Shown here: one piece after another, positions 18,894 to 50,466 of the stretch
How the letters are laid out: each line of letters begins with the position of its first letter
Position numbering within the stretch: the stretch's first letter is position 1
Origin: Brasilonema sp. CT11
GTDB taxonomy: Bacteria > Cyanobacteriota > Cyanobacteriia > Cyanobacteriales > Nostocaceae
Direction: 5' to 3'
Assembly (NCBI RefSeq): GCF_017982655.1
Contig: NZ_JABXYX010000015.1
Span: 1 to 64,000 of the forward strand
Length of the DNA stretch: 64,000 bases
Translations under genes and position numbers: made by a program
Notes under the pieces: model-generated
Told to the model about the DNA's origin: nothing
Databases searched by the model: none
The model's input: only the letters and a program-made list of their open reading frames with translations

Positions 18894-19400
18894 TCAAGAG
18901 GATGAGGAAGATGAGGACAGAAGGTAGGAAATTCTCCCTCACTTCCTCATTCCCAGCCTACGGCGATCTACGATCCACTTCGTTAACGCTAGCCCCTACG
19001 GGGCAAAGCTCGCCGGGGGATACTCCCCCCGGCAGACTTTGACGCTCTTGCAACGCGCTTGACCTGTTTTGAATTCACGCATTCGCTCATTCAAAGTTCA
19101 ATCCGGAACAAGAGGAAGATTTTTGAATTAACCCTTCGGACTCAGCCGAAGGGTTAATTACTCCTTTCCCGCCCGAAGATTACCGTTTAGACAGCAGAGG
19201 AGCAGGGGAGTAGGGGAGCAGGGGAGCAGGGGAGAAGAAATTACATCGGTAATCTTACACCGGGAAGGGAGTAATTCCGAGTACAGGCTCCCGCTAAAGC
19301 TTCGTTTTCAGCGGTCTTCAATCGGTGGGGGCACCAAGCCACCAGCGATTGTCTTAATTTTTGAATTTTGAATTTTGAATTTTGAATTGTTTTGACTCCC
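18894..19400. other. 507-bp gene-free stretch filled with small repeats
   Basis: No gene is seen. It holds a palindromic repeat cluster (about 18955-19065, with GCTAGCCCCTACGGGGC), a 12-bp perfect hairpin TTAACCCTTCGG at 19128-19157, the 119-bp inverted-repeat element at 19157-19275, and tandem TTTTGAA heptamers at about 19358-19388. The 19128 hairpin could end transcription from the PBP2 gene but lacks a U-run. Confidence 0.6.
19157..19275. repeat. 119-bp element with about 29-bp imperfect inverted ends
   Basis: The left end reads ATTACTCCTTTCCCG, then AAGATTACCG; the right end is its reverse complement with a few mismatches (CGGTAATCTT, then CGGGAAGGGAGTAAT). The middle is a run of GGGGAGCA-type octamers. 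This looks like a small non-autonomous element or a folding repeat invaded by a tandem repeat. Confidence 0.55.
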
Positions 19401-30900: not shown

Positions 30901-32745
30901 ACCAATTCTTACAAATATATCTTCGAGCCAAAGCATAATTTGGTCAAGCCATTCAAGAACTTGCTCCAGAGGATGTTTTTCATAGCCAATCGTTTGAGCT
31001 TGTGCTTCAATCCAATCTGGTTTCGCCTCAACCTGAGTCGTTTGCTGCTGCTGATAAAGAATTTCTCCCTTGTTATCTTTAATTAGGTTGCTCTCAGTTT
31101 CTGATTGAGAAATAAGGGAATGGGAAGATGAGGAAGACTTCCAAATTTTCTTTGCGTAGCCTGCTTGTAGAGCAGATTTTGAATTTTGAATTAGCTGTTT
31201 TGCTTGACTCAAAACGCTGAGGTATTTTAAATGGATTTGTCTCCTTATCTTCACATCAGGATTCGCGGGGAGAGAAGATTTTGGAGACGAAATCTTCACA
31301 TCAGGACTCGCAGGAAGAGCAGATTTTGGAGACTCAGATGATGTCACTAAAAATTGTTGTTCGTTAAGAACCTCTGTTACTTCATGTAAACCCCCAAACA
31401 AATCGTCCATTGTTAACCAAGGATCTGCTATATTCTCGCTTGGGAAATCAGGGCTTTCGGGTAAAGCTGAGGCAAAAGGACGCTGTGGTAACTGTACCGT
31501 TTTTTGTTTTTTCTTTGAACCTATTGATAAAAATTGGTTAATACTATTTTTTGGAGTTTTATGCTCTAGTTTCTTCGTGTTGGAATCGCCAAAAAAATAA
31601 TTAATTGCTCCCCAAATTAGAGCTTGGATTTTCGACGTTTGATGTTGTGAATCACCATCTAATGTTTTTCGTTCAGTGCTCAGTTGCTGCTCTTTACCGT
31701 AGACAAAGATATTTAGCTGATTTTGAACAGTTCGGAGCAATTGTCCAGTCGTACGAGATATTGTGACTACAGCACCAGATTCTATTTGGGCGATCGCTGC
31801 GTCTAGTAATGGTAGTCTTTGGAATATACCAGGTAATTCTTGATACTCTTTTTTATCTTCGGTTTCCGTTGCTTGAGGTAGGGCAAGTATGCTTTGAGGA
31901 CTACCCGTCAATTTGTTCAGAAGACGATCAATTTCAGATAATACTTTTGTTTCGTCTTTGCTTTGAATCAACTGCCAAGAACGGCATCTAGCAACTTCCT
32001 GAAGAATCCGGTTTTGCAATATCTCCTGCTGCCGAAGCGTTAAAATATCGAGAATTTTATTTTCAATCGTAACGAGTACCAAATTACGACTTCCCAAATC
32101 TGAAGCAATTCCCCGCACTATTGGGGGAGATGAGACAGTGGGGAGGCTGTGCGTTGCTGAGCCAGTACTTGATGAGGGTTTCCCGACAGAGGTATCTGGC
32201 GTTGGGGTTCCCGAGCCAGTGCGTTGGGCGGGTTCCCCGACTTGTAGACGCCCGGAGGGCGGCTTCCCGAAGGGTAGCACCTGGCGTCCCGTTGTAGCAC
32301 CTGCCGTGGAGTTAGGGTGTGAGACAATCAGGGGAGATGAGACAGTGGGGAATATAGAAAAGTAAGGTATCCAGACAGTTAGGGAGTTCTTTTTCCCGGC
32401 TTTTCCCGGCTTTGGTGCTTCTGCAGTTTCCAGAGTCACCGCTGCTTTTAGAACTCGCTGAATTGGAGTATCTACAGATGAAACAGTTTCGGAGTTAGTC
32501 TGACTTTCTTGTAACTGGAATCTGGGTTGTTGCTCATTTGTATGCAGTTGTTTCCCGGCTGACTCTGTTGCTTTGTGAATCAGCATATACACGCTCGTAA
32601 GTAGAGCCTCTAATGACCAATTAGCAGCGACTTGTACATGCCGTATGGTACGCTCAAACTGTTCACCCCAGCGTCGAGATTGCTGGTGGAAAAAGTTGAA
32701 AACTCTGCTTTGATAACGACCAGGGGTAGCAGGAGGCATAGGCAA
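30868..32745 (-). CDS. Hypothetical cyanobacterial protein, 625 aa, with inserted repeat region
   Basis: I recognise no known enzyme domain. Two segments look conserved-like: residues about 210-270 (ASDLGSRNLVLVTIENKILDIL; LRQQEILQNRILQEVARC) and the C-terminal 80 residues (PDWIEAQAQTIGYEKHPLEQ; WLEDIFVRIGLFVRRRFRGN), which end in a basic, amphipathic helix that might touch a membrane. The middle is low-complexity and charged. A 207-bp block flanked by a direct repeat (32124-32351) encodes a Pro/Ser/Thr/Gly-rich insertion around residues 130-205. Its stop overlaps the end of the converging MocR gene. Likely expressed, function unknown. Confidence 0.7.
   Translation of the reverse strand: MPMPPATPGRYQSRVFNFFHQQSRRWGEQFERTIRHVQVAANWSLEALLTSVYMLIHKATESAGKQLHTNEQQPRFQLQESQTNSETVSSVDTPIQRVLKAAVTLETAEAPKPGKAGKKNSLTVWIPYFSIFPTVSSPLIVSHPNSTAGATTGRQVLPFGKPPSGRLQVGEPAQRTGSGTPTPDTSVGKPSSSTGSATHSLPTVSSPPIVRGIASDLGSRNLVLVTIENKILDILTLRQQEILQNRILQEVARCRSWQLIQSKDETKVLSEIDRLLNKLTGSPQSILALPQATETEDKKEYQELPGIFQRLPLLDAAIAQIESGAVVTISRTTGQLLRTVQNQLNIFVYGKEQQLSTERKTLDGDSQHQTSKIQALIWGAINYFFGDSNTKKLEHKTPKNSINQFLSIGSKKKQKTVQLPQRPFASALPESPDFPSENIADPWLTMDDLFGGLHEVTEVLNEQQFLVTSSESPKSALPASPDVKISSPKSSLPANPDVKIRRQIHLKYLSVLSQAKQLIQNSKSALQAGYAKKIWKSSSSSHSLISQSETESNLIKDNKGEILYQQQQTTQVEAKPDWIEAQAQTIGYEKHPLEQVLEWLDQIMLWLEDIFVRIGLFVRRRFRGN
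32124..32351. repeat. In-frame insertion bounded by a 21-bp direct repeat
   Basis: GGGGAGATGAGACAGTGGGG plus A occurs at 32124-32144 and again at 32331-32351, 207 bp apart. Between them are short palindromic repeats (for example around CGCCCGGAGGGCG and TTCCCGAAGGG). 207 is a multiple of three, so the 625-residue frame is preserved and PTVSSPPIV/PTVSSPLIV appears twice in the protein. Confidence 0.65.
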
Positions 32746-32905
32746 TTCAAAATTTAAAATTCAAAGTTCAAAATTAAGAAAACTAGTGTGCTAGTAATTG
32801 GTCTAGTCCCTAGCTGTGTACAAGTTCAATGCGTGAGGTAATGGTGAACTTTTGTTAAAAGTGTTGCTTAGCTGTCGGACTCGCACCAAACAATAAATCG
32901 AAACG

Positions 32906-46739: not shown

Positions 46740-49025
46740 TTAAATATCTGGTTTATTCAATCCCATTCCGCACCGCGTACAGAACTTGCAATTAGTAGAA
46801 TTCTGATGACCGCAACTGGTACATGAAATATAATCTGGAATCAAAACAGAAGTTGCAACTGTAGTTTCTTGAATAGGTGCTAGATTCCTTGGAACATAGT
46901 AATTGGCAAAGTGCTGGCGTAACAAATCATGCATAAACCGATAGCCGCCCCCTACTCGTTGTAGAAATAGGCGATTGGTGCAGTAGTTAAGAAACTTGGC
47001 ATAATTCCAAGGAGCGTAACCATTAGCCCAGAGAATTACGCGTAAAACAAAATGTTTAATTGCTGGTGCTCCACTTCTAGGTATTGCAATAAGCAGTCCA
47101 ATAGTTAATCCATACACTGGACTAGAACCTAAGTCTAGCTTCCATCCAAATATTTTTATCCCTATAAAAAGTATTAATGTAGCCAATAAAAAAGTGACCG
47201 TTGATATAATAACAGTGTTAATAACTGATTGGCGAATTCCTTTATTAGGAATAGTTTTGTTTTCAATTTGTCGCCCATCAATTCCAAAAATCAGCCCTAA
47301 AATCAGCCCTGAAATCAGCCCAAAAATCAGCCCATTAATCAGCCCAAAAATCAGCCCATTAATCAGCCCAAAAATCAGCCCTAAAATCAGCCCAATTGAA
47401 GACTTTTTTAGAGAAAATTTTATAATCTCAACTGTTTGAATTTCATCTCCAATCAGCCCAAAAATCAGCCCATTAATCAGCCCAAAAATCAGCCCATTAA
47501 TCAGCCCATTAATCAGCCCATTAATCAGCCCAAAAATCAGCCCAAAAATCAGCCCATTAATCAGCCCATTAATCAGGTTTTTTATAGTTGTTAACCTAAC
47601 AGTTCTGAGATGATTAATTAATTTAATCTTTTCTATTTTATTTTCTATTATATTTCCAATCAGCCCATAAATCAGCCCTGAAATCAGCCCATAAATCAGC
47701 CCATAAATCAGCCCTGAAATCAGCCCTGAAATCAGCCCATAAATCAGCCCTGAAATCAGCCCTGAAATCAGCCCTAAAATCAGCCCATAAATCAGCGTTC
47801 CTATAAATCCCCATGCAATCAAATTATAAACAAATTTGTGAATTTTATTTTTCAACCAACTCGGTTGAATTCTTTCAATCAAAAACTCAGTTGCACTTTC
47901 ATCCTTCAACCTTTGCGCCAACCAACTTAACCAGCGTTTAGTCTTTTCTGGATCAGGTTGTTTCCCTCTATAGTTACGTTTTAGCATTCTACTGATGTAA
48001 GCCTCAAATAGATAGCTTAGGCGTTCCTGAGAAGACTTTAAGTCCTGCCACGTTTCTATTGATAGTTCTTGAGCCGAAAGTACAATAATATTTAATAAAA
48101 GTGGTGTTTTCGCTAATTTGCTTAACTCTTCATCCTGATTAATACTGTCACACAATTGTAAATTATTTGTGTTTTGTAAATATTGGTTCACTTGCTCTTG
48201 AGTAAAAGGGCATAGTTCCAAAGAATTATTTAGTTGAAGTAAAGCTTTATAACGTTGATACTCTTGTATTCGACTGCAAATAACTAAAGGATTGCTCCAT
48301 CCAGAGTTTATAAAATCATTAATTTTGACAACACATTTTTCTTGACGTTCTGCCGCTAGTTCATCCAACCCATCTAGAAGGGGTAGAATTTCTTGATTTT
48401 CTATTAACTGTTTACCAATATCTTTCCGTACCCCATATTTATGTTTAAGCTGGTCTACTAACCAATCTTTAATACTGTTACTATCATTTTTCCAGGAAGA
48501 TAAAGCGAATAACACTGGAATCGGATGTGCTGAGTCATTTTTAGCACGGTTGACTAGTTCCTCAGCTAACTTAAGAAGCATGGTAGTTTTTCCAACACCA
48601 GGGTTCCCCAGAATCAATAATCTACCTGCAATATCAGGTTGATCATAGATTGCGATTATTTCGGTATTTGTTAAATGAATTTTTGGTGTGGAACCCACCT
48701 TTATCTCACTTGCCCAAGGTAATTCAATCTCAGAGGGATTTTGGTCTGTATCTTGGACAATATAAATCCGATTATGGAGAGAGGTACTTATGCGGCTTTC
48801 AACTTCAGTGCTGACTTGTTTTAACAGTATTTGTTGTACACGACTTCTGGGATTGAGTGATTGATTGCTAGATCCAGAGAAGAAATTGCCAATATTCCAG
48901 ATATCGCCGCCTATACGCTCAGCATTAACGTTCTCAGCATCGATAAGCCCACCACCAAACTGGGTATTGCGTAAGTCATTATTAGAGACTTTTTTAGGGT
49001 CTTTGGGGTCTTCTGACTCCGGCAT
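46740..49025 (-). CDS. NACHT NTPase with N-terminal signalling motif, GLIx membrane repeats and C-terminal zinc ribbon
   Basis: The 761-residue protein has, in order: a disordered start; a short motif at about 22-43 (TQFGGGL, VNAERIGGDI) also found in the divergent CHAT protein; a STAND/NACHT NTPase core with Walker A GNPGVGKTT (140-148) and Walker B ILPLLDGLDEL (213-223); three blocks of tandem GLIx units (about 414-457, 487-525, 545-581; some 30 units) that should form packed membrane helices; two further membrane segments (about 601-625 and 635-650); a conserved NACHT-tail segment (LQRVGGGYRFMHDLLRQHFA); and a zinc ribbon CTSC...CTRC (735-752). It is probably a sensor that oligomerises at a membrane. 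It is likely one half of a conflict or cell-death system with the neighbouring CHAT protein; that pairing is inference. Confidence 0.85.
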   Translation of the reverse strand: MPESEDPKDPKKVSNNDLRNTQFGGGLIDAENVNAERIGGDIWNIGNFFSGSSNQSLNPRSRVQQILLKQVSTEVESRISTSLHNRIYIVQDTDQNPSEIELPWASEIKVGSTPKIHLTNTEIIAIYDQPDIAGRLLILGNPGVGKTTMLLKLAEELVNRAKNDSAHPIPVLFALSSWKNDSNSIKDWLVDQLKHKYGVRKDIGKQLIENQEILPLLDGLDELAAERQEKCVVKINDFINSGWSNPLVICSRIQEYQRYKALLQLNNSLELCPFTQEQVNQYLQNTNNLQLCDSINQDEELSKLAKTPLLLNIIVLSAQELSIETWQDLKSSQERLSYLFEAYISRMLKRNYRGKQPDPEKTKRWLSWLAQRLKDESATEFLIERIQPSWLKNKIHKFVYNLIAWGFIGTLIYGLILGLISGLISGLIYGLISGLISGLIYGLIYGLISGLIYGLIGNIIENKIEKIKLINHLRTVRLTTIKNLINGLINGLIFGLIFGLINGLINGLINGLIFGLINGLIFGLIGDEIQTVEIIKFSLKKSSIGLILGLIFGLINGLIFGLINGLIFGLISGLILGLIFGIDGRQIENKTIPNKGIRQSVINTVIISTVTFLLATLILFIGIKIFGWKLDLGSSPVYGLTIGLLIAIPRSGAPAIKHFVLRVILWANGYAPWNYAKFLNYCTNRLFLQRVGGGYRFMHDLLRQHFANYYVPRNLAPIQETTVATSVLIPDYISCTSCGHQNSTNCKFCTRCGMGLNKPDI
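47285..47394 (-). repeat. 12-bp coding tandem repeat, block I (GLIx units)
   Basis: The plus strand repeats ATCAGCCCAAAA/ATCAGCCCATTA, i.e. on the coding strand GGGCTGATT plus a variable codon. It encodes nine Gly-Leu-Ile-x units (x = N, F, S, L), residues about 545-581. Confidence 0.9.
47450..47576 (-). repeat. 12-bp coding tandem repeat, block II (GLIx units)
   Basis: Ten GLIx units with x mostly Asn or Phe (residues about 487-525). The same 12-bp DNA unit as block I, separated from it by non-repeat sequence encoding a charged loop. Confidence 0.9.
47658..47796 (-). repeat. 12-bp coding tandem repeat, block III (GLIx units)
   Basis: Eleven GLIx units with x mostly Ser or Tyr (residues about 414-457). 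Units read ATCAGCCCTGAA or ATCAGCCCATAA on the plus strand. Block-specific x residues suggest each block expanded separately. Confidence 0.9.
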
Positions 49026-49105
49026 GGCTTCTTTGGGCGTTGTTGGTTAGTTTGTATTATATATGTCTCCACCTTGTCTGCTTTGATTCCGGATGAAAGA
49101 GAATA

Positions 49106-49255
49106 GGGAGTATTCCAAATGTGTAAGTTATATAAAATCCAGGTTATGAATTGTCATTGCGAGCGTAACGTAGTGGAGCGAAGCAATCGCAAGATATGAG
49201 ATTGCTTCATTCCGCTTCGCTTCATTCGCAATGACAAACATGTTTTGCAAAATTG
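49106..49255. mobile_element. MITE copy A (GGGAG...TTGGG ends), upstream of CHAT
   Basis: It starts GGGAGTATTCCAAATGTGTA and ends TTTTGCAAAATTGGGAG, with internal TGTCATTGCGAGCG and CGCAATGACA inverted inside. It lies back to back with copy B, sharing the terminal bases. The two are about 95% alike. Confidence 0.75.
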
Positions 49256-49412
49256 GGAGCATCCCAAATGTGTAAGTTATATAAAATCCAGGTTATGAAT
49301 TGTCATTGCGAGCGCAACGTAGTGGAGCGAAGTAATCGCAAGATATGAGATTGCTTCATTCCGCTTCGCTTCATTCGCAATGACAAACATGTTTTGCAAA
49401 ATTGGGATGCTC
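49255..49412. mobile_element. MITE copy B, tandem with copy A
   Basis: It starts GGGAGCATCCCAAATG and ends TTGGGATGCTC, almost perfect inverted termini. With copy A it fills most of the 451-bp gap between the divergent NACHT and CHAT genes, so any promoters for these genes lie within or beside the repeats. Confidence 0.8.
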
Positions 49413-49476: not shown

Positions 49477-50187
49477 ATGCCAGAAACTCCTAATAGACAA
49501 TCTAATTTCAACTTACAAGGCGCTCAATTTGCTGGAGGTCTTGTAAACGCTGATTCAGTGAACGCCCATCAAATAGGTGGTGATATTACCAACTACAACC
49601 AAGTTGCACAAACACAAGCCAACAATTCTGCAGTCAAAACAATTCTAATTTTGGCAGCAAATCCAAAAAACAGTTTGCCCCTGCGATTAGGTGAAGAGGT
49701 GCGAGAAATTGACGCTGCATTGCAACGAGCAAAAAAACGAGAATTATTTGACCTAAAACAGCGTTCGGCTGTGCGTGTTCAAGAAGTTTACCAATCGTTA
49801 TTGGACTTTAAGCCACAAATTGTTCATTTTAGCGGTCATGGTACAGGTGATGATGGTTTGGCACTGGAGGATGAAACCGGGAATGTGCGATTAGTGGATA
49901 CACAAGCTTTGGCTGGACTATTCGAGTTATTTGCTTCTCAGATTGAGTGCGTTGTTCTCAACGCTTGTTACTCAGAAGTTCAAGCCCAAGCGATTGTTAA
50001 GCATATTCCCTACGTGATTGGAATGAACAAGCAGATTGGTGATCAAGCTGCAATTAAATTTGCAACAGCTTTTTATAATGTATTGGGTGCTGGAGAATCG
50101 GTTGAATTTGCTTATAAGCTTGGGTGCAACGTTATTCAGCTAGAGGGTATTCCAGAATATTTAACTCCTGTATTAAAGAAGAAATAG
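49477..50187 (+). CDS. CHAT-domain (caspase-like) protease with N-terminal signalling motif
   Basis: The 236-residue protein starts at ATG 49477; upstream frame extends into a MITE and is not needed. Residues 17-36 (AQFAGGL, VNAHQIGGDI) match the N-terminal motif of the divergent NACHT protein. The CHAT domain covers about 54-230, beginning TILILAANPKNSLPLRLGEE. It has the catalytic dyad: His in IVHFSGHGTGDDGLAL (H121 the likely base) and Cys164 in VVLNACYSE. CHAT proteases are bacterial relatives of caspases/separase used in defence and programmed cell death. The expected role is as effector released or activated by the NACHT sensor. The MITE abuts the stop codon. Confidence 0.88.
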   Translation: MPETPNRQSNFNLQGAQFAGGLVNADSVNAHQIGGDITNYNQVAQTQANNSAVKTILILAANPKNSLPLRLGEEVREIDAALQRAKKRELFDLKQRSAVRVQEVYQSLLDFKPQIVHFSGHGTGDDGLALEDETGNVRLVDTQALAGLFELFASQIECVVLNACYSEVQAQAIVKHIPYVIGMNKQIGDQAAIKFATAFYNVLGAGESVEFAYKLGCNVIQLEGIPEYLTPVLKKK

Positions 50188-50390: not shown

Positions 50391-50463
50391 GGCAGTGAAC
50401 AGTAAACAGTGAACAGTGAAAACTGGTAACTGATAACTGGTAACTGATAACTGATAACTGATA
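50391..50463. repeat. Heptameric tandem repeats (AACAGTG, ACTGATA types)
   Basis: The stretch reads as AGTGAACAGTAAACAGTGA followed by repeats of TGGTAACTGATAACTGATA. The seven-base units are typical short tandem repeats of heterocystous cyanobacteria. They end 4 bp before the next gene's stop codon. Confidence 0.7.
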
Positions 50464-50466
50464 AGC

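Follow-up and report, generated by a model that had tools for sequence, protein, structure and literature searches.

Gly-Leu-Ile arrays in a hydrophobic insert of a cyanobacterial NLR-type NACHT protein

Why would a NACHT protein carry thirty copies of a four-residue hydrophobic unit in the middle of its chain? The question is raised by a gene of Brasilonema sp. CT11 (Nostocaceae), which we studied in the first 64,000 nucleotides of contig NZ_JABXYX010000015.1 (hereafter the window, with positions given on its forward strand). The gene (46740..49025, minus strand, as are all features within it) encodes 761 residues: an N-terminal motif, a NACHT NTPase, an interrupted winged-helix part and a zinc-ribbon-like end. 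Our answer is that the finding is real, family-specific and biologically coherent, and that the repeat is the extreme, recent state of a known NLR type with an unusual insertion, which we infer to enter the membrane. Judged from the sequences, a hydrophobic domain has been inserted into an NLR-type NACHT module, within its winged-helix (switch) part or close to it, and the arrays are the form that this domain takes after recent amplification. A first-pass annotation had pointed out the repeat; beyond it we describe the insertion in the switch region, a wholesale different insert in a positional orthologue and an N-terminal motif common to the adjacent CHAT gene.

The arrays and their spelling

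The protein contains 30 in-frame Gly-Leu-Ile-x (GLIx) units in three runs of 11, 10 and 9 from the N to the C terminus, so that the annotated estimate of about 30 units, in blocks of 9, 10 and 11 in plus-strand order and built from a 12-base-pair (bp) repeat, proves exact. In block 1 (11 units, residues 414-457, 47655..47786) x is mostly Ser or Tyr, in block 2 (10 units, residues 487-526, 47448..47567) mostly Asn or Phe, and in block 3 (9 units, residues 545-580, 47286..47393) Phe, Asn, Leu or Ser, again mostly Asn or Phe. Every unit is coded by GGG CTG ATT followed by a variable codon (GGGCTGATT-NNN). Tandem Repeats Finder reports periods of 12 and 24 bp in both array regions, and additionally of 36 bp in block 1. 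The longer periods fit the order of the x codons and differ by block, as do the codons themselves; hence we read the blocks as separately grown, as the annotation had proposed from their distinct x residues. Shuffling residues 400-592 with composition kept (10,000 times) gave at most a run of 3 units and 8 GLI tripeptides, against 11 and 30 observed.

How far does this spelling extend? Of 99 related genomes, 18 (in 14 of 89 genera) have three tandem copies of GGGCTGATT separated by free spacers; in an overlapping sample across the phylum, 12 of 386 genomes have them (12 of 143 genera). The reversed control pattern gave none among the matches listed. The relatives search points to 19 places, since one genome (G006) has two, and all of them belong to the NACHT family and read in the GLI frame, one as a broken copy. 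Of the 18 open reading frames (ORFs) checked, 3 matched only one of the two signature patterns, P-loop and tail. Six more places from the phylum-wide search are also family members, the tail pattern not being found in two. Other NACHT proteins with GLIx arrays, which the annotation had suggested looking for, are thus present. Viral contigs had no match to three tandem nonamers, and a search of plasmid DNA with the repeat returned 20 records; in none of them did a single place cover 80% of the query. A match in an Aeromonas plasmid (H18) was set aside as chance, being antisense to an NQPG repeat gene.

To compare usage we took as family the 72 ORFs with NACHT and tail found in the fetched loci (70 after removal of duplicates). 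The nonamer GGGCTGATT spells 191 of the family's 266 array units and 101 of its 278 isolated GLI tripeptides, and none of the 38 GLI in 327 non-family ORFs, a set that excludes ORFs similar to the family or overlapping it. An earlier, loosely filtered control of 'other ORFs', where the nonamer made up 34 of 101, ran against this contrast and was replaced, since it could hold family fragments. The spacer codons vary by genome while the nonamer is common to several genera, with GGG every 12 nucleotides on the coding strand. A coding 12-bp unit thus keeps one synonymous spelling across many genera as its fourth codon changes. Such constancy might suggest that the repeat is foremost a DNA- or RNA-level element, for example in recombination or as a G-run structure, with the protein effect secondary, and the dominance of the spelling in arrays and its recurrence among genera are what one would then see. 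Yet the repeat lies in the GLI frame and in the NACHT family at every place checked, and single-strand DNA folding of block 1 falls within the shuffles (z -0.8 and -1.3). The strong scores of block 2 (z -7.6 and -4.1) and of RNA (z -6.7) are of little use as evidence, since the shuffles no longer contain the repeat. Moreover, an ancestral unit retained by repeated amplification accounts for the spelling equally well, and we take amplification from such a common unit as its best explanation. A primary role of the nucleic acid is in our view very improbable.

Repeats are error-prone and the window comes from an assembly of 411 contigs, which could speak for an artefact. But the frame is open throughout, the same-locus orthologue in an assembly of 3 contigs (genome G004) has 28 GLI tripeptides, and tandem units recur among the relatives where the reversed pattern does not. 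The assembly artefact that the annotation had itself raised is hence unlikely, even if the unit number in the window could be off by a few; that the arrays are an artefact or a chance low-complexity stretch altogether is scarcely credible. Matches to Pfam DUF5862 and DUF5518 within the arrays were under cut-off and were read as low complexity. On the opposite strand an 81-residue ORF (47194-47439) reads the array as ISPx units, and we take it as a by-product of the repeat.

A separable insert in an NLR-type fold

The NACHT NTPase domain (residues 136-285, 48171..48620) matches Pfam PF05729, a P-loop NTPase profile, with E 1.7e-12 and 47.9 bits (cut-off 26.7). A structure model of the protein, built from 13 sequences, has NLRC4, NOD2 and NLRP3 as its closest structures in the PDB, the NACHT domain itself matching NLRC4 and NLRP3, and it shows the fold of the nucleotide-binding, first helical and winged-helix domains (NBD-HD1-WHD) of NLRs. 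Model confidence (predicted local distance difference test, pLDDT) by blocks is 67-88 over residues 121-380, 71-82 over residues 671-710 and 32-59 in the insert. The PDB search by sequence gave, in the best 60 of 64 weak matches, mostly P-loop NTPases, one NLRC4 chain (E 0.043) and a few unrelated proteins. The alignment with NLRP3 (Z 14.6) covers 324 residues and runs from 134 to 538 in NLRP3 but from 61 to 714 in the model; these ranges imply about 250 extra residues in the window protein within the aligned span. The unmatched residues would be the insert, as judged by comparison of the ranges and not of residue pairs.

The insert can be placed more closely. A helix at residues 359-375 (47901..47951), defined by the model and by alignment with homologues that have little or no insert, directly precedes it and is probably the first helix of the winged-helix domain. 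The end of that domain, a helix, two strands and a helix in the model, follows at residues 671-708 (46902..47015). Between them lies the module of residues 376-655 (47061..47900), the segment with a different sequence in the positional orthologue described below. In our reading the insert thus falls within the winged-helix domain, with the precise assignment of helices as the more tentative part. Within it the three GLIx blocks are charge-free, with mean hydropathy 1.8-2.2, and are set apart by charged linkers that each contain 3 to 6 basic residues. Linker 1 (47568..47654), which only some of the family have, joins blocks 1 and 2; linker 2 (47394..47447) joins blocks 2 and 3, and linker 3 (IENKTIPNKGI) lies at 47214..47285. 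Residues of linkers 2 and 3 are conserved over 13 aligned members. The model and hydropathy indicate two more long, largely hydrophobic helices at residues 595-667 (47025..47243). Eight long helices are predicted in the insert region, at low confidence, both in the full model and when the insert is modelled alone (pLDDT 48.6, predicted template modelling score (pTM) 0.27; too poor for a structure search). Of the annotated glycine-zipper membrane blocks, then, the hydrophobic, charge-free character and a glycine every fourth residue stand, the latter fitting tight packing, while the helices are predicted with low confidence. The glycine stripes would favour tight helix packing, and packing as a glycine zipper is plausible. 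A strict scheme of two helices per block was not upheld; block lengths vary strongly among orthologues.

By sequence the insert is separable from its scaffold: homologues have it in GLIx-rich, non-repetitive or short form, or have next to none of it. In seven that have little or no insert, the sequences on either side can be aligned. The distance between flanking anchors, measured in 46 of the 70 members (24 members without a match to the anchor patterns were left out), is 67-70 residues in 2, 89-106 in 5 and 178-440 in 39. A profile of the insert and its short flanks matches 36 of 292 sampled cyanobacterial genomes (28 of 116 genera), all in the class of the window except one weak match (G322). 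Some match to the whole NACHT protein, in many cases partial, is found in 86 of the 99 related genomes.

One locus allows a direct comparison. In the window and in genomes G004, G003 and G002, an ABC-transporter gene, a TPR gene and two small genes precede the NACHT gene. It is followed in the window, G004 and G002 by the CHAT gene and two further genes, which we take to be SufR and SufB, and in G003 the contig ends just past NACHT. The NACHT domains are 87-94% identical to that of the window (313/342 in G004, 322/342 in G003 and 297/342 in G002). Array blocks grow or shrink by at most 39 residues between these orthologues, in line with the annotated expectation that a 12-bp unit changes length without frameshift; array lengths indeed vary among close species. 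The gene of G002 at this locus (L041/L075) has a non-repetitive insert, and another copy with GLIx is found elsewhere in that genome (L010/L057). Identity between L041 and the window is 12/15 over residues 361-375, low over residues 376-655, and then 14/15, 19/20, 23/25 and 43/46 in successive stretches. The annotation had named, as grounds for doubt, homologues with ordinary non-repetitive helices and a repeat confined to one culture: the former exist, even at the same locus, and the latter is not the case. The family can hence do without GLIx itself. In a tree built from 69 NACHT domains, the state 'at least 10 GLI' requires 10 changes, 8 of them forced by well-supported branches; L102 and L054 are long branches that meet in this tree, which calls for caution. 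On sequence grounds, this shows recurrent and recent expansion of the 12-bp unit.

These results bear on a rival explanation of the insert, namely that it is a mere membrane anchor in which any hydrophobic helix rich in Gly, Leu and Ile suffices, the arrays being tolerated products of slippage and sensing taking place at the N terminus, on the NACHT surface or in a partner. The shifts of array length and x residues between close species fit this explanation, as do the non-repetitive insert of the positional orthologue and the 12-, 24- and 36-bp periods, which suit slippage. However, linkers 2 and 3 keep conserved residues in the 13 aligned members, and a mere anchor would hardly be expected in the switch region, which the insert interrupts. 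We thus think this explanation unlikely, while giving it real weight.

The N-terminal motif, the CHAT neighbour and a possible route of signalling

NLRs usually carry a sensor C-terminal of the winged helix. This sensor belongs to the tripartite plan and is not obligatory for NACHT proteins. The Pfam scan of the window protein found no LRR, TPR or WD40 there, only an end of about 50 residues resembling a zinc ribbon (residues 733-756, 46758..46829; PF13240, 21.5 bits, under the cut-off of 25). In 61 of the 70 family members at most 18 residues lie beyond the winged-helix tail profile, which makes the insert the best candidate for a sensor.

At the other end of the protein, motif A (about residues 17-46, 48888..48977) is common to the product of the adjoining, divergent CHAT gene (49477..50187, plus strand, 236 residues from its ATG), where its counterpart (49480..49596, plus strand) is 51% identical over 39 residues. 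This caspase-like protease matches PF12770 (E 1.1e-12, 48.5 bits, cut-off 24) and the PADLOC chat model (E 2.2e-19), and has a His in SGHG and a Cys in LNAC that are presumably catalytic. For the NACHT protein the PADLOC matches were all weak, the best having E 0.00024. The 8.8-Mb genome has motif A in three places. Two are the neighbouring NACHT and CHAT genes; the third, on a different contig, is a pentapeptide-repeat gene. Motif A is found in both NACHT and adjacent CHAT genes of eight genomes (that of the window, G004, G002, G011, G041, G037, G009 and G027). The NACHT proteins of these eight pairs have from 1 to 31 GLI, so the pairing goes with the scaffold rather than with the repeat. In G003, whose contig ends there, the fetched stretch beside the motif-A NACHT gene has no CHAT match. 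More broadly, an N terminus common to a neighbour was found at z of at least 12 in 15 of 50 testable members, with five types of motif, one of them helical; the shuffle test skipped neighbours less than 50 bases away, which include the caspase pair of the paralogue in the same genome and the CHAT pair of G009. Pfam searches of nine more members, mostly picked for extra length, found an N-terminal protein kinase in three, a CHAT domain in one and a cyclase in one.

We favour, at about an even chance, a membrane-held NLR-type NACHT receptor with a polytopic domain in its winged-helix switch, signalling through the N-terminal motif to the adjacent CHAT protease. The inserted domain would hold the receptor in the membrane and act as sensor or anchor. 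A membrane event would alter the packing of helices along the glycine stripes and release the switch; the N-terminal motifs could then cluster, recruiting and clustering the CHAT protease, and the activated protease would bring about arrest or death of the cell. A wider proposal, which we hold to be rather doubtful, is that of an NLR class whose membrane-domain sensor is wired into the nucleotide switch, reads the state of the membrane or membrane-acting attackers and fires CHAT through a prion-like motif. This sensor would be hypervariable through 12-bp amplification and wholesale replacement between alleles at one locus, akin to the diversification of antigen sensors by other means. If the receptor works in this way, filamentous cyanobacteria own a type of NLR with the membrane as a part of the switch, and offer a concrete test of danger sensing by NLRs lacking C-terminal repeats. 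The natural series of matching scaffolds with almost no insert or with a short, non-repetitive or GLIx insert, including one same-locus pair, provides ready controls for swaps.

Several observations weigh against the favoured receptor. The modelling of the insert is poor, as its scores above indicate, so any membrane topology is tentative. Block lengths hold no fixed hairpin size, block 1 going down to about 24 residues in L011. Short-insert forms are confined to one clade and may be secondary losses. No donor of the L041 insert was found among the collected ORFs, where the best outside match is 35% identical; this insert could equally well come from a swap or from fast divergence with sharp edges. 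The pairing with CHAT is incomplete: no CHAT match lies in the 10-14 kb fetched around the motif-A NACHT genes L057 (the second G002 copy) and L073 (G042), and 35 of the 50 tested members lack a neighbour-shared motif at the sensitivity used. Finally, the insert coexists with C-terminal WD40 in L079 and with TPR in L055. The insert thus need not be the sensor, and the idea that it replaces the sensor in all members was dropped for this reason.

Could the insert instead be the effector, in line with the pore-forming part that the annotation had proposed? An activated NACHT ring would then gather glycine-zipper bundles into a pore or rupture the membrane, with CHAT as a regulator or a second output. 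Glycine at every fourth residue, polar x residues (Asn, Ser, Tyr) and the hydrophobic stretches suit this role, and HeLo-type and BELL membrane effectors coupled to NLRs provide a precedent in the portion of PMC7889193 consulted. But CHAT, kinase or cyclase domains occupy the output position in several members, and the motif ties the NACHT protein to the protease. Besides, a positional orthologue without GLIx and members almost without insert argue against the repeat being a conserved effector. We consider this role improbable.

Related systems and accessory observations

Bacterial NACHT and NLR-related STAND receptors (bNACHT) resemble the favoured membrane receptor in their central NACHT NTPase, winged-helix end and N-terminal output module or adaptor. 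The family studied here differs from them by the polytopic hydrophobic module in the winged-helix part and, in the 61 members mentioned, by having nothing like a C-terminal sensor. KAP P-loop NTPases have transmembrane segments inserted in the NTPase domain, and are alike in that membrane helices interrupt a signalling NTPase. Here, however, the NACHT match ends at residue 285 and the module begins at residue 376, i.e. past the P-loop core, and no KAP family is among the best 25 of 26 Pfam matches. HELLP has a glycine-zipper feature. The fungal HELLP/HeLo and bacterial BELL death effectors likewise tie a hydrophobic membrane part to NLR signalling, but as a separate effector, whereas in this family it sits inside the receptor.

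A close parallel for the gene pair is NLR-associated bacterial amyloid signalling, where BASS motifs are paired with Bell, CHAT or TIR effectors: here too a short motif rich in Gly, Asn and Gln occurs in the N terminus of the NLR and in the adjacent gene product, a CHAT protein. The likeness lies in the shared motif and the gene layout, and by analogy motif A may be amyloid. The excerpted text of a review (PMC7889193) treats NLR/effector pairs of such layout as amyloid signalling and counts CHAT as one of the rarer partners. Cyanobacterial caspase proteins combining NACHT and a transmembrane segment, some with WD40, are already noted in the accessible part of a review (PMC7475262), and family member L079 is similar in having NACHT, the insert and WD40. 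That part of the review, compared by its descriptions, has no winged-helix insertion or GLIx arrays. In the open-licence literature, the titles and abstract openings of the best-ranked matches mention neither GLIx arrays nor a membrane insert within the winged helix of NACHT proteins, and none of the papers searched combines the terms NACHT, glycine zipper and cyanobacteria.

Motif A has hydrophobic residues at every fifth position and occurs in pentapeptide-repeat proteins too; it may be a stray pentapeptide-like coil. The pentapeptide-repeat protein that carries it in the same genome (G000:C165:9422-9661, L039) lies on a contig which also has a 922-residue frame matching NACHT and CHAT. A NACHT paralogue of this genome (G000:C66:6164-8350, L038) has a long non-repetitive insert and adjoins a caspase (Peptidase_C14) gene; the caspase ends in FHIGDVVHNN and the NACHT N terminus has FQIGDRIYQ. 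On the Nostoc plasmid pNPM5 (L153 1240-5688) a RHIM-like VLGDGN stretch is common to a pentapeptide protein and the NACHT protein next to it, which has a GLI/GLS-rich insert. In another locus (L064 4262-8921) a GLIx NACHT protein and a neighbouring 257-residue protein share a helical N-terminal domain that we take to be EAD-like. Between the NACHT and CHAT genes of the window (49102-49399) lie two tandem 149-bp copies (97% identical) with 41-bp imperfect inverted arms. Elsewhere in the window, 7-bp short tandem repeats, presumably of the kind termed STRR (short tandemly repeated repetitive sequences) in heterocystous cyanobacteria, are found at 19359-19388, 32744-32775 and 50417-50464.

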